Below, piece after piece: positions 11,751-22,108 of a stretch of 22,108 nt of DNA. Position 1 is the first letter of the stretch. Every line of letters begins with the position of its first letter. A program made the translations under genes and the position numbers. This stretch comes from a virus: the IMG/VR virus record IMGVR_UViG_3300026263_000019, positions 1-22,108 of that record, one strand, 5' to 3'. The notes beneath the pieces were generated by a model. It saw only the letters and a list, made by a program, of their open reading frames with translations. It did no database searches and was not told the origin of the DNA.

Positions 11751-13145
11751 ATGGCATCACCCTTAAAAGTAATAAATTCTGGATCGAATCTCCAAGTGAT
11801 GACCGATACAGAAATAGACACTATGATAGTTCCTCTTGTTCTACAAGAGTTCGCCAGTGATCAAACATATAATAAAAGAGGGAATTGTACTGCATACGCT
11901 AACAATTTCGGCAATGCTGGTGATTTTGATAACAGGTTCCGTAACGATGATGTAGGCGCTCATCCTATTTCCGACGGAAACTTTACTACCACTGAATGGT
12001 CTATTCAACAAGAACAAACCTTAACGGCAAATGTATCTAGCGTAGTCTACCCTACGAAATTTATTTCTTCGGGCTGTAAACTACAAACGATGACTACCGC
12101 CGAATTACAAACTACTATTTTAGCCAGAGTTGCTAACAATTGGAAAACTAATACTTATCCAGTTGGAGGGTATTATTTTGGGACTGCAGCGCCAGATGCA
12201 GATACATGGGTTTATTGTGGGGATTCACTAACAGAAACGTATAGAAAAGTAGGTGATGATAATGAAACCGTTTATAGATTATGGAGAAAAACTGCTCCTA
12301 CTACAACTTCAGGATCCAGGCCAATTTATAATAGATCAGAAGGTGATGGTGTCCAGGAAATGTCAGATGCAGATATTAAAACATTAGCCGCAGAATGGAG
12401 AAATTATCTTTTTAATGTAGAATCTATTGGCCACTATCAAATGGTAACAGGTGCTTCTGCTCCCGGAACCGGCACGTGGACACAAGTAGGTGCATATTAT
12501 GATTATCTAACAGATACCGGAGATATAATTTATTCTCAAGGATATGAAGGAATATATTCTCAAATGTATGAAGGAATATATTCAGGACAATATGAGGGAT
12601 TGTATTCAGGACAATTCCTTGGCAACTATTCGAGTGGTTTTACGGGGATTTATTCCGGACAGTTTTTAGGACTTTTTTCAAAAGGATATGAAGGATTTTA
12701 TTCTCAAGGATTTTCCGGGGGATATGGAGGAGGATATCAAGGCGGATATATAGGCGGTTACACTCAAGGATTTACAACAACATATGGGTCTGGAAGTGAA
12801 ACCCCTAATCCTCAAGCTACGTCTTCAGGTGGTACGTACAGCTCCACGTATTCTGGCATCTATTCTGGCATTTATTCAGGAACATTTTCTGGCCAGTATT
12901 CAAATCAATATGCTGGTTTTTATTCTAATCAATTTGAAGGTATATATAGTATGGGGTTTCAAGGAATCTATTCTCAAGGTTTTGAAGGTACTTATTCATC
13001 CGGTTTTGAAGGATATTATTCACAAATGTATGTAGGAATTTATTCAGGGCAATATTCTGGTTTTTACAGTAACCAATATACAGGAAGAACTGTTTTGGCT
13101 TCATTAGGTACTGATAGTTATACATTCTGGAAGAGGATTGCGTAA
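11751..13145 (+). CDS. YS-octapeptide repeat fibre-like protein 1
   Basis: A 464-residue protein with two parts. Residues 1 to about 255 contain three copies of a short module: LQVMTDTEID, LQTMTTAELQ and VQEMSDADIK, each followed by a helix. They also contain a YYFGTAAPDADTWVYCGD block and an APGTGTWTQVG block just before the repeats. Residues 260-445 are tandem units of 8 residues of the form (I/F/L)YS(Q/G/S)(G/Q/M)(F/Y)xG. A GGYxGGY-rich spacer and a TPNPQ linker interrupt them, and shorter 4-residue YSG units follow. The C-terminus is a short cap, TDSYTFWKRIA. The gene after it is a paralogue with the same order of parts. I do not recognise the family. A fibre or adhesin on the virion is likely from position, the low charge of the repeat and the repetitive build. 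Its stop overlaps the next start as TAATG. Confidence 0.75.
   Translation: MASPLKVINSGSNLQVMTDTEIDTMIVPLVLQEFASDQTYNKRGNCTAYANNFGNAGDFDNRFRNDDVGAHPISDGNFTTTEWSIQQEQTLTANVSSVVYPTKFISSGCKLQTMTTAELQTTILARVANNWKTNTYPVGGYYFGTAAPDADTWVYCGDSLTETYRKVGDDNETVYRLWRKTAPTTTSGSRPIYNRSEGDGVQEMSDADIKTLAAEWRNYLFNVESIGHYQMVTGASAPGTGTWTQVGAYYDYLTDTGDIIYSQGYEGIYSQMYEGIYSGQYEGLYSGQFLGNYSSGFTGIYSGQFLGLFSKGYEGFYSQGFSGGYGGGYQGGYIGGYTQGFTTTYGSGSETPNPQATSSGGTYSSTYSGIYSGIYSGTFSGQYSNQYAGFYSNQFEGIYSMGFQGIYSQGFEGTYSSGFEGYYSQMYVGIYSGQYSGFYSNQYTGRTVLASLGTDSYTFWKRIA
12528..13085 (+). repeat. Octapeptide (24-base) repeat region of paralogue 1
   Basis: This stretch encodes about 15 octapeptide units, such as IYSQGYEG, IYSQMYEG, IYSGQYEG, FYSNQFEG and IYSQGFEG. 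The array is split in the middle by a GGY-rich spacer and a TPNPQ linker (about 12719-12840). Aromatic residues fall at two positions of each unit and Gly at the last. Codons differ between units, so most copies are old and held by selection on the protein. Confidence 0.85.
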
Positions 13146-15028
13146 TGGCTACTGACGGAAGAGTAATGAGAATCTATCCACTGGGTAGTAACACAGAATT
13201 AGCCGCAACAGAAAGTGGAAAATTATATATAGGGTCGGTAACTGAAACCGGTTCCGGTGCTTCTGCTAATATTGGTAAAATTACAACTATTACATCTACA
13301 CCGGGAGCTGGAGTATATGATGATGTATTTGCTGCCGGCGATTATCTTATTATTAGACATCAACAATATGGAATGTTAGGTGTTGGTCAATGGATTAAAG
13401 TTCAATCTGTTTCAAGTACGGGAGCCAGTACAGAATTAACTTTAGAAGATGGTGCTGCAGAATTTTACAAATATTTAAATTCATCCGGAGCAAGTTATAC
13501 AGGCCAAACCAGCGTGGGTATTACATTTGAAAAAGTAATGGGTTGGGGTGTTAGACAAATGACTAACGACCAAATTGATGATTCAATAGTTCCAGAAGTT
13601 TTTAATAGATGGGGATCCTATACAAAAGGAACTGCAACACATGATGATTGGAAAAGTCATATAAGACCTTTAGCTGGTACTTCTAATACATCTGGTTATG
13701 ATTTATGTGGAACTGTTGGTGAAAGATATAGAAGCCCAGATGTTGTAGGTGATCATCCAGTAGCAAATAATGTAACTATAACTAATTATTCATTAGAACA
13801 ATGTGTTGGAACAAAACCCTTTAATGGCGCAGCGGATGCAACACATGTTGATGATTTAAATAGTGTTGTAGAATTTTTGGGTGCTAATACAGGTGGGTCT
13901 CACGGCGGTAAGGTATACGAAATATCAGACGCAGAAATGGCTGCCGGTGCTGTTATTGCTAGGTGTAATGCATATTTTACTTCAGCCGCAAATACTGTTG
14001 GTTCTTATCATATTGGAACTGCCGCGGGAGATTCAGATACTAGTTCTTGGCATGATGAAACATGGTATACAGATACAGTAATAACATCGTCAGGTTCAGC
14101 AAACGTTGCATATCATCTTTATAGAAAAGAATCTGGTATTGAACGAGGATGGTCAACTTCAAGATCTTTATCAAATGCTAATACAGAAGCAAGAGCCGCA
14201 AATTCTGTTACACATTGGACTGGTGCTAATGCTGACTATATTGCCGTAGGAAATTATCCACGTGCAGCAACAGATGAGGTAATATACTTACCAATTTATA
14301 ATCAAGGTAATAACCAAACTAAAGAATCAAATACTGTTCAAGCCTATGGGCATTCTGCAACTTTACAAGATACTGCAGGTGATGCCGGCATACATTTGCA
14401 TTGGATTAAACATTTATTGATTGCAAATGCCGGTGAATATAGTTTAGTAACAGGTAATACAGCTCCTGGAACCGGCACATGGCAATTTTGTGGTAATGTA
14501 TATGATAAAGTTACAACAGTTGCAGATGTAATATATTCTCAAGGATATGAAGGTATATATTCTACAGGATATGAAGGCATTTATTCACAAGGATTTGCCG
14601 GAATTTTTAGTAGCGGATTCACTGGAATTTATTCAACAGGCTTTGAAGGCATTTATTCACAAGGATTTACTGCTGGTTATGCTGGTGGTTATGCTGGTGG
14701 ATATGGCGGTGGATATACTCTAACTTATGGTTCTGGCGGCGAATCACCTAACCCTCAAGCCTCTTCAGAAGGTCCTACATATTCCGGAACTTATTCTGGA
14801 ACATATTCTGGAACATATTCTGGAACATATTCACAAGGATTTGCCGGAATTTATTCAGCAGGCTTTGAAGGCATTTATTCACAAGGCTTTGAAGGCATTT
14901 ATTCACAAGGATTTGGTGCAGTTTATAGTGGCCAATATACTGGCATCTATAGTAACCAATATACCGGAACAACGGTATTTGCCACTTTAGAAACAGATAC
15001 ATATTCGCTTTGGAAAAGAGTAGCATAA
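13145..15028 (+). CDS. YS-octapeptide repeat fibre-like protein 2
   Basis: A 627-residue paralogue of the preceding gene. The N-terminal ~460 residues are longer and diverged, but share landmarks with paralogue 1: VRQMTNDQIDDSIVPEVF (compare VMTDTEIDTMIVPLVL), HIGTAAGDSDT, and VTGNTAPGTGTWQFCG. The repeat region (residues 463-608) has units IYSQGYEG, IYSTGYEG, IYSQGFAG and IFSSGFTG. A GYAGGYAGGYGGGY spacer, an ESPNPQ linker and a run of four-residue TYSG units follow, then more octapeptides. The C-terminal cap TDTYSLWKRVA matches that of paralogue 1. The start lies in a TAATG overlap with the gene before. The pair is therefore a tandem gene duplication whose repeat frame, linker and cap were kept while the N-terminal parts diverged. 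A fibre or adhesin role is inferred. No enzymatic motif is visible. Confidence 0.75.
   Translation: MATDGRVMRIYPLGSNTELAATESGKLYIGSVTETGSGASANIGKITTITSTPGAGVYDDVFAAGDYLIIRHQQYGMLGVGQWIKVQSVSSTGASTELTLEDGAAEFYKYLNSSGASYTGQTSVGITFEKVMGWGVRQMTNDQIDDSIVPEVFNRWGSYTKGTATHDDWKSHIRPLAGTSNTSGYDLCGTVGERYRSPDVVGDHPVANNVTITNYSLEQCVGTKPFNGAADATHVDDLNSVVEFLGANTGGSHGGKVYEISDAEMAAGAVIARCNAYFTSAANTVGSYHIGTAAGDSDTSSWHDETWYTDTVITSSGSANVAYHLYRKESGIERGWSTSRSLSNANTEARAANSVTHWTGANADYIAVGNYPRAATDEVIYLPIYNQGNNQTKESNTVQAYGHSATLQDTAGDAGIHLHWIKHLLIANAGEYSLVTGNTAPGTGTWQFCGNVYDKVTTVADVIYSQGYEGIYSTGYEGIYSQGFAGIFSSGFTGIYSTGFEGIYSQGFTAGYAGGYAGGYGGGYTLTYGSGGESPNPQASSEGPTYSGTYSGTYSGTYSGTYSQGFAGIYSAGFEGIYSQGFEGIYSQGFGAVYSGQYTGIYSNQYTGTTVFATLETDTYSLWKRVA
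14531..14968 (+). repeat. Octapeptide repeat region of paralogue 2
   Basis: Two blocks of octapeptide units flank a GGY-rich spacer and an ESPNPQ linker. Several neighbouring 24-base units are almost identical at DNA level, for example the GGCATTTATTCACAAGG core repeated around 14869-14910. This is more recent-looking than in paralogue 1 and fits repeat gain and loss. Confidence 0.85.
14777..14832 (+). repeat. 12-base in-frame tandem repeat (TYSG units)
   Basis: Four consecutive 12-base copies (14777-14788, 14789-14800, 14801-14812, 14813-14824), followed by a partial copy. The third and fourth are identical (ACATATTCTGGA); the first and second differ by one base each. Each copy encodes Thr-Tyr-Ser-Gly in frame, so slippage would change the repeat length without breaking the frame. 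Confidence 0.9.
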
Positions 15029-15061: not shown

Positions 15062-15679
15062 ATGGCCGAACAAGAAGTAGCTGAAACTAAAGAGTGGACT
15101 CATGATACAATGATTGAAGCATTATGGAGAACACCAGAAAAAAAAGAAATTTCTATCCTTTATGAACGAGAAGATAAATCTAGATATTCCGGACAAGCTT
15201 TAGAAGATTCTCAAGAATGGAAAGATTTTTTTTATAAATTTACCCCGGAGCAGGTTGATCAATTTTCCGAAACTGCTAGAATCCAGCGTGAGAGTCAAAA
15301 TAAGGGTAGAGCAGCGCGAAGCAATCAAGTTGAAGAAAAACAAAAAGTTGAAAGAAGAAAAGCGGCGGATGATTTAGAAACCTTATTTCGTGCTAAATTA
15401 GAAGCCTTTGAGATTCCGGAAGTTAGAGATAGTGAAAATAGAGAATTGAGGTCAAGAATTAGAAAATCTAAATCACTAACAGAAATTTCTGCCTTAGTTG
15501 CATCTCTTATAACACTTTCTATAATTAAAGTAACTTTAAGACCCGAAGGTCTTTTAGATGAAAGTGAGCCGGAGGAAACCGAAGATGCGGCAGTCCAACA
15601 CGACGGTGATGAAGCAATCATGATTGATGCATCAACTATTAATATTGTAGCTAATAAGGAAATTGGGGATGCGGAGTGA
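15062..15679 (+). CDS. Unknown charged protein, first gene of the modification cassette
   Basis: A 205-residue protein that I do not recognise. The N-terminus (EWTHDTMIEALWRTPEKKEISILYERED) resembles a small folded domain. Residues about 60-135 are very rich in charged residues and likely helical or coiled coil (EEKQKVERRKAADDLETLFRAKLEAF). Residues 139-158 form one hydrophobic stretch (LTEISALVASLITLSIIKVTL), which could be a membrane segment or a buried helix. The tail is acidic (ESEPEETEDAA). The start has AAAGGA four bases upstream and follows the candidate late promoter at 15024. Its end overlaps the glycosyltransferase gene by 11 bases, so it is probably made together with that enzyme. 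A structural protein or an enzyme partner are both possible. Confidence 0.7.
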   Translation: MAEQEVAETKEWTHDTMIEALWRTPEKKEISILYEREDKSRYSGQALEDSQEWKDFFYKFTPEQVDQFSETARIQRESQNKGRAARSNQVEEKQKVERRKAADDLETLFRAKLEAFEIPEVRDSENRELRSRIRKSKSLTEISALVASLITLSIIKVTLRPEGLLDESEPEETEDAAVQHDGDEAIMIDASTINIVANKEIGDAE

Positions 15680-20689: not shown

Positions 20690-21136
20690 ATGCAAGATTA
20701 TGATCCGATTGATAAACCACTATCACCTAAAGACGTAGATGATAAATTGAATGAAGTTTTTGAAATAGCTCCAGTGGTAGAAAAAGTACCAGTAGAAAGA
20801 GTTACACCTAAAAAAACAGATGACGAAGATTCAGATACTGATTTTCAGTACACAAGAGAAAATCTGTATAATATAATAGAGAGAGGTTCCGACGCCATGG
20901 AAGGCCTACTTGAGATTGCTAGGGAAACAGAACATCCTAGAGCATATGAAGTAGTGGGTCAATTGATCGATAAGTTAACTAATGCAAATAAAGAACTTAT
21001 TGGTTTACATAAAACGATGCAAACAGTGAAGGAGGATTTGATAAAGTCACCGACAAATGTAACAAATGCGTTATTTGTGGGTAGCACGGCAGATCTTCAG
21101 AAACTTTTAAAACAAAATAAGGAAACGAAAAAGTAA
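20690..21136 (+). CDS. gp16: Small terminase subunit, T4 gp16 homologue
   Basis: A 148-residue homologue of T4 gp16, the small terminase subunit that regulates DNA packaging by the large subunit gp17. The acidic N-terminus is followed by a central helical hairpin, residues about 55-110 (RENLYNIIERGSDAMEGLLE...RAYEVVGQLIDKLTNANKELIGLHKTM), matching the T4 coiled-coil core ([28 protein letters not shown]). Then NALFVGSTADLQKLL matches T4 NATVFMGSPTELM. GAGAGG lies seven bases before the ATG. It is slightly shorter than T4 gp16 (164). An open stretch in the +1 frame follows the stop at once (see the feature at 21111). Confidence 0.92.
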   Translation: MQDYDPIDKPLSPKDVDDKLNEVFEIAPVVEKVPVERVTPKKTDDEDSDTDFQYTRENLYNIIERGSDAMEGLLEIARETEHPRAYEVVGQLIDKLTNANKELIGLHKTMQTVKEDLIKSPTNVTNALFVGSTADLQKLLKQNKETKK

Positions 21137-21285: not shown

Positions 21286-21630
21286 TTGGAACAATTATTC
21301 ACAATCGATGAATTCATTATGATAGGACTAGTCCTATTTTCATCATTTTGGATTTTTCTATTTAATTACAGGCAAGACAATAAGGATAAGTATGCCGGAC
21401 ATTGGGGATTGATAGTTTTAGACCTATTCATTAATATGGGTATGTCGGCAACTGGATATCTGCTAATATCTATTGTATTCCAAAACGTTCCACAAATAGC
21501 AGCGTATGAAAGTTATAGATATCCCATAGGATATTTGTTTGGGCTTACTTCTAATGTAAGTATACCGATTGTTCTCAAGTGGTTTCAGCAACAAATCACT
21601 AAGAAATTAAACGACGCAGGAAAGAAGTGA
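21286..21630 (+). CDS. Three-helix membrane protein, holin-like
   Basis: A 114-residue protein with three hydrophobic segments: residues about 9-27 (DEFIMIGLVLFSSFWIFLF), 41-65 (GLIVLDLFINMGMSATGYLLISIVF) and 79-98 (YPIGYLFGLTSNVSIPIVLKWF). A polar hinge separates the first two, and the C-terminus is basic (QQQITKKLNDAGKK). Size, number of helices and the tail fit a class I-type or LydA-like holin, which makes the inner-membrane hole for lysis, but no family signature is certain. TTG start at 21286, supported by GAAAGG five bases upstream; the first in-frame ATG would lie inside helix 1. It may overlap the following cytochrome-like gene (if that starts at GTG 21627) and is otherwise 8 bases from it. 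An alternative is a membrane partner of the haem protein. Confidence 0.6.
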   Translation: MEQLFTIDEFIMIGLVLFSSFWIFLFNYRQDNKDKYAGHWGLIVLDLFINMGMSATGYLLISIVFQNVPQIAAYESYRYPIGYLFGLTSNVSIPIVLKWFQQQITKKLNDAGKK

Positions 21631-21638
21631 GGAAGATA

Positions 21639-22079
21639 ATGGCAGATCAAAACAAAAAATATGAAGCGGGTGAACAAGAATTAAAAGTGATGGAACCTGT
21701 AAAAGAAATAGAAATTGAGACTAAGGATATAGTAGCCACAAGCAAATTATGGATTTACATAATTATTGGATTATTGGTATATATGATGTTTTTTATTATC
21801 CCAGAGATTGATGAAAAAGTCACATGGATGGAAAAAGACTTAAACTCTGTATTGGTACAATCTGAAAGATTTAAGAAGTCAACAAGAGTGTTTGCGAAGG
21901 ATCATCAATGTGCTTCATGCCACTTGAGTCCTGATTATCTTCTTCATAATTTACTTATGAAGTATCCTAGTTTTTCTGACATAAAAGCATTTATGGCGGT
22001 CGGACATCAGAGATATTTCACAATGACCTCACCGATACCAGATGAACAATTATTAGATGTATATCGAGCGTTACAATGA
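21639..22079 (+). CDS. Membrane-anchored cytochrome c-like protein (CxxCH)
   Basis: A 146-residue protein. Residues 1-36 are charged and probably cytoplasmic; residues 37-55 are one membrane helix (LWIYIIIGLLVYMMFFIIP); the rest would be periplasmic. FAKDHQCASCHLSPDYLL contains C91, C94 and H95, the CxxCH haem c attachment motif. About 34 residues later FTMTSPIPDEQLLDVYRALQ offers M129 as a possible axial ligand, followed by the (S/P)DEQ..DV...L C-terminal helix typical of class I cytochromes c. The domain is compact: the His-Met distance is shorter than in cytochrome c551. ATG 21639 is preferred, with GAGG six bases upstream; GTG 21627 is also possible. A haem-binding electron carrier at the outer face of the inner membrane is the best reading. 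A zinc or disulfide motif in a spanin-like protein is the main alternative. Confidence 0.72.
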   Translation: MADQNKKYEAGEQELKVMEPVKEIEIETKDIVATSKLWIYIIIGLLVYMMFFIIPEIDEKVTWMEKDLNSVLVQSERFKKSTRVFAKDHQCASCHLSPDYLLHNLLMKYPSFSDIKAFMAVGHQRYFTMTSPIPDEQLLDVYRALQ

Positions 22080-22108
22080 TAATGGTAGGTAAAGTTTTCA
22101 TTGCACTA
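22076..22108 (+). CDS. Start of a further gene (3' partial)
   Basis: ATG 22076 overlaps the preceding TGA as ATGA, the same coupling used elsewhere in this window, and opens a frame MIMVGKVFIAL that runs off the end. A second ATG lies at 22082. Eleven codons are too few to name it. T4 order would predict the large terminase gp17, but these residues do not resemble the T4 gp17 start. Confidence 0.35.
   Translation, partial: MIMVGKVFIAL

Follow-up and report, generated by a model that had tools for sequence, protein, structure and literature searches.

The electron carriers that phages are known to encode are for the most part copies of photosynthesis genes of the host, and the plastocyanin and ferredoxin genes of cyanophages are auxiliary electron-transport genes of their phages. 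In the XoxG/XoxJ arrangement of methanol dehydrogenase systems, a cytochrome c gene stands beside a gene for a binding-protein-like product. Genes for electron transport in general, for cytochrome c oxidase and for SoxD have been reported in viral data, the last in phages (PMC8190135), and a nitrogen-cycle survey observed no such electron carriers, cytochromes included, in its phages (PMC8115048). A phage-only family of c-type cytochromes in a fixed gene cassette was not found in the open-access papers searched.

The window, i.e. the whole stretch of DNA that was analysed (22,108 nucleotides), corresponds to positions 3889-25996 of C77, a 26,910-base contig of the metagenome bin G000; an IMG/VR record of equal length carries an identical gene. 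A gene near the end of the window (ATG at 21639, stop codon at 22077-22079) encodes a membrane-anchored cytochrome c-like protein, hereafter cyt. The features of the gene and its surroundings are:

20690-21136, + strand: gp16 (small terminase), next to the cassette on its left (phrog_445, E=2.1e-44)
21286-21630, + strand: protein X, 114 aa, multi-TM, TTG start; invariant partner upstream of cyt
21639-22079, + strand: cyt, membrane-anchored cytochrome c-like protein, 146 aa (from ORF, homologues and dN/dS)
21747-21803, + strand: single TM segment of cyt, residues 37-55 (mean hydropathy 2.45)
21909-21923, + strand: CASCH haem c motif with C91, C94 and H95 (CxxCH invariant, 118/118)
21945-21947, + strand: His103, nearly invariant (117/118)
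21993-21995, + strand: Met119, invariant (118/118), candidate distal haem ligand
22005-22007, + strand: His123, invariant (118/118), favoured candidate distal haem ligand
22023-22025, + strand: Met129, variable (M in 83/117), the ligand proposed in the initial annotation
22076-22108, + strand: start of an AapJ-like amino-acid-binding protein (SBP_bac_3), whole in L086:3159-4328
L086:4338-5024 and L106:11538-12131: PycTM-like (Pycsar effector) membrane proteins, beside the cyt cassette

The N-terminal membrane anchor and the CASCH motif, both pointed out in the initial annotation, are borne out, the motif down to its codons. The anchor is flanked by three Lys/Arg and four Asp/Glu residues on its N-terminal side and by two and five, respectively, on its C-terminal side, a charge bias that weakly favours a cytoplasmic N-terminus. 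Scans of IMG/VR with different queries yielded 140, 172 and 192 confirmed relatives, and conservation was counted over 118 unique homologous proteins. CxxCH is present in every one of these, so that homologues lacking the motif, which the initial annotation had named as evidence against its claim, are absent from this set; a later scan with divergent members likewise returned no new subfamily and no member without the motif region. The two residues between the cysteines vary (A/S, then S/T/E/A/G/D), and the homologues contain practically only two Cys, those of CxxCH. Invariant positions are C91, C94, H95, M119, G122 and H123, together with the stretches EKDL and PSFSD. The median pairwise dN/dS of 0.066 shows a gene evidently under strong purifying selection; given this value, the 118 unique homologues and the unbroken CxxCH, cyt is no chance ORF.

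The distal haem ligand is a different matter. The initial annotation had placed it at a downstream Met in a TMTSPIPDEQ context. This residue, M129, is indeed there, but the residue at position 129 is M in 83 of 117 relatives and otherwise A (16), L (12), N (4), S (1) or T (1), and one subfamily carries SSATNP at this site, in a loop without any Met. Since M129 is replaced in 34 of the 117 (about 30%), it cannot be the general sixth (axial) ligand and is rejected in that role; H123 or M119 would then be the distal ligand.

Whether cyt belongs to a described cytochrome family was addressed with profiles and models. The Pfam search, proposed as a check in the initial annotation, found no family above its curated cut-off. 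The weak matches that span the motif are all to cytochromes c (SoxA/TsdA, C550 and CBB3). The SoxA/TsdA profile PF21342 matches 28 of 32 members weakly over the CxxCH and YP region, with a score for cyt of 12.8 bits, far below the cut-off of 27 bits. A sequence search of the PDB with the full-length alignment gave no match, and the sole match of a PDB profile search, SoxA 1h31, is non-significant (E=0.11). Comparison of the cyt profile with 45 bacterial class I domains by hhalign gave a probability of 74%, with an alignment spanning the helix before CxxCH, the motif, helix 3 and the C-terminal helix. When the columns were shuffled with C, C and H kept in place, 5 of 200 profiles reached the real score (195 of 200 were beaten), and when the motif was masked the similarity shrank to 12 columns and 4 of 200 shuffles equalled the real score. 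Most of the signal therefore comes from the motif, the rest of the profile adding modest support. Structure prediction, also suggested in the initial annotation, produced a helix order that fits class I at low confidence, but neither AlphaFold model (pLDDT 65 and 58) is good enough to reveal a haem pocket; Foldseek and VIA-align searches with these low-pLDDT models found no cytochrome and are uninformative.

Against a cytochrome stand the absence of any family above its cut-off, the poor models and the 12 columns left after masking. Nevertheless, the invariant CxxCH, the two cysteines, the class I-like helix order and the weak but consistent cytochrome c matches uphold the description as cytochrome c-like, and cyt is likely to be a haem c protein. 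On the best reading of its sequence, membrane-anchored cytochromes c of class I would be its nearest functional counterpart, although it falls outside the class itself on account of the Pfam cut-off and of the distal Met after helix 3, which is not conserved in the family.

The main new result, and the strongest clue to function, is the linkage of cyt to its two neighbours, which the initial annotation did not see. Protein X has two clear TM segments and a likely third, and matches no family. A role as a haem b protein was considered for X and rejected, since it has no well-conserved His. Downstream, the SBP gene overlaps the cyt stop codon by 4 bases and runs past the window end. Its product has a signal-like N-terminus, scores 45.8 bits with SBP_bac_3 against a cut-off of 26.4 and matches the AapJ structure (PDB 4z9n) over the whole fold (E=2.2e-79). 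Wherever a locus has room for the partner, X lies directly 5' of cyt (132 of 132) and SBP downstream of it (103 of 103, 98 of them within a narrow preset distance). The reverse tests place cyt 3' of X in 35/35 and upstream of SBP in 51/51; these counts include related contigs and are not independent events.

Beyond SBP, the cassette becomes less uniform. PycTM-like proteins, which pass the PF18967 cut-off of 27.2 bits with 73 and 83 bits, follow SBP in 65 of 89 loci; they could be holin-like or counter-defence genes, and inspection by eye recognised no Pycsar (uridylate/cytidylate) cyclase in the cassette. At L086:5014-5971, the gene for a small membrane protein and that for a class 3 lipase lipoprotein overlap in different frames; the two are possible lysis genes. 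The lipase is present in 8 of 28 loci. In a 134-kb phage contig (G001), X, cyt, SBP, PycTM, the small TM protein and the lipase occupy 85.7-89.3 kb, about 83 kb from the adjacent gp16 and gp17 at about 1 kb. As the six genes are found together at this other site, they appear to be mobile as one block, and this speaks for a joint function.

The placement of cyt among T4-like phage genes, as initially annotated, holds. The window carries gp13, gp14, gp15 and gp16 upstream of the cassette, and relatives lie on T4-like contigs of up to 167 kb. The longest of these (G203) has the order gp13-gp14-gp15-gp16-X-cyt-SBP ... gp17-gp18-gp20, and this T4-like order shows that cyt belongs to a phage. In G002, G203 and the window phage alike, the cassette sits between gp16 and gp17, amid late morphogenesis genes. 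The late-promoter motif ATAAATA occurs at five sites in the window, all on the + strand, which is fewer than expected by chance, and none of the five lies directly upstream of X; ATAAATA-like sites at 15025 and 17866 just precede genes at 15062 and 17910. Two large tail-region proteins of the window (464 and 627 aa) contain YSGQYEGIYSQGFEG-type repeats, at 12600-13000 and 14400-14990. In G203, a long gene run at about 54-91 kb (L267-L269) has, by eye, a radical SAM/SPASM-type and otherwise biosynthetic look.

The family occurs in many uncultured marine T4-like phages. Among isolated phages, cyt finds a match at chance level only (E=9), X and the PycTM-like protein have no relative, and SBP has distant matches only. 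Searches of 198 genomes from the phylum and 397 from the order found no bacterial homologue of cyt, bin G000 excepted, and of the GTDB contigs two matched, each apparently a phage contig placed in a bin. Bin membership is only weakly indicative of a host. Bin G000 contains CcmE and a class I cytochrome, so that haem attachment would be possible there, and its contig C43 begins with the isocitrate lyase of the phage; no 16S gene was found in the bin. Gene similarity was rejected as a pointer to G000 as the host, since neither its AapJ (39%) nor its isocitrate lyase (58%) is close. The cassette phage itself has a complete isocitrate lyase gene (L086:6050-7336; NCBIfam equivalog, 656 bits), after which comes one for a BMP-type binding protein; this lyase is rare among relatives (0/28 loci).

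The explanation that we prefer, and to which we give an even chance, is that cyt is a phage-specific, membrane-tethered mono-haem c-type cytochrome that acts on the periplasmic side together with its partners. Its C-terminal domain would face the periplasm, where the Ccm machinery of the host would attach one haem at C91/C94, with H95 as the proximal and H123 (or M119) as the distal ligand. Together with X and SBP, cyt would make up a small unit of the inner membrane, carrying electrons on its periplasmic side during late infection; the late-gene position in several phages, the export-type layout and the binding-protein partner all fit such a unit. Its electron carrying would most likely sustain respiration, membrane energy and amino-acid supply until lysis. 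The respiratory electron-carrier role is the more tentative part of this proposal, and we put it at clearly below an even chance.

Of the other explanations, the one that survives best is a haem c sensor of redox state or gas, part of a membrane-bound phage module that times lysis or prevents superinfection. This module would comprise X, cyt, the AapJ-like SBP, the PycTM-like protein, the small TM protein and the lipase lipoprotein, with the haem domain sensing the periplasmic redox state and SBP sensing nutrients. Such a role is possible but rather unlikely. It would account for the six genes forming a block at another site in G001, for a PycTM-like protein above the Pfam cut-off with lipase and small membrane genes downstream, for the cassette lying amid late genes and for the dispensability of Met129. 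Furthermore, the linker helix of cyt is highly conserved, and residues 65-85 are more conserved than a haem domain requires, which hints at a role in binding or signalling. However, neither the PycTM-like protein nor the lipase is constant in the loci, and the M15 peptidase, a likely lysin, is sited elsewhere. A dedicated haem-based decision module, made up of X, cyt and SBP and often joined by the PycTM-like, small TM and lipase genes, sensing periplasmic redox state and nutrients in order to time lysis or exclude rival phages, is a little less likely again.

Less probable than either is that cyt is no cytochrome at all, the CxxC pair, H103 and H123 binding zinc or making a disulfide within a structural domain in the periplasm, such as that of a holin-like or immunity protein. 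C91, C94, H103 and H123 are invariant or nearly so and could make a Cys2His2 site, and the predicted layout of cyt (N-in, single TM, C-out) resembles that of the T4 holin T. However, H95 directly after C94 is equally invariant, and the residues between the cysteines vary as in haem c motifs. The weak matches over the motif are to cytochromes, and no holin family is among the Pfam matches listed up to E=10, HMMER filters dropping most weak matches. The plain metabolic import of a captured host cytochrome c and an amino-acid-binding gene with no shared mechanism, to which the isocitrate lyase and BMP-type binding protein genes of the same phage lend some colour, is quite improbable in view of the exceptionless X/cyt/SBP linkage and of the lack of bacterial homologues in the phylum and order genomes searched and in the GTDB contigs beyond two apparent phage contigs.

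Taken together, the haem-type signature and the two constant partner genes suggest that a large group of uncultured T4-type ocean viruses may bring an electron-handling part of their own into the infected cell. If this is true, lytic phages that infect heterotrophs make redox parts of their own for the periplasm. In addition, X/cyt/SBP marks a large T4-like clade, uncultured and widespread in the sea, and is a small gene set directly testable in E. coli.

Compared with described proteins, cyt is closest to membrane-anchored class I cytochromes c (cytochrome c_y type; Cytochrome_CBB3, PF13442), with which it shares the N-terminal anchor, the CxxCH after a helix, the Gly before the distal loop and the C-terminal DEELL..Y helix (profile probability 74%). 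It differs from them in staying below the Pfam cut-offs, in having no conserved Met ligand, in the spacing of only 28 residues between CxxCH and His123 and in being phage-only, and from SoxA/TsdA (PF21342) in having neither a distal Cys nor a second haem domain. SBP resembles AapJ in the TxTxTR-type motif and CDMYGTD, which are kept in most unique partners, but is phage-encoded, has an N-terminal extension and has no adjoining permease genes. The gene pairing recalls XoxG/XoxJ, a likeness to be taken as a lead only; no dehydrogenase gene was seen in the cassette, and SBP is AapJ-like. Finally, cyt shares with the plastocyanin, ferredoxin and SoxD of phages that it would be a phage-encoded redox carrier that may sustain host energy metabolism; those proteins are recognisable copies of host genes, whereas cyt, with no detectable host homologue, is part of a fixed phage cassette.
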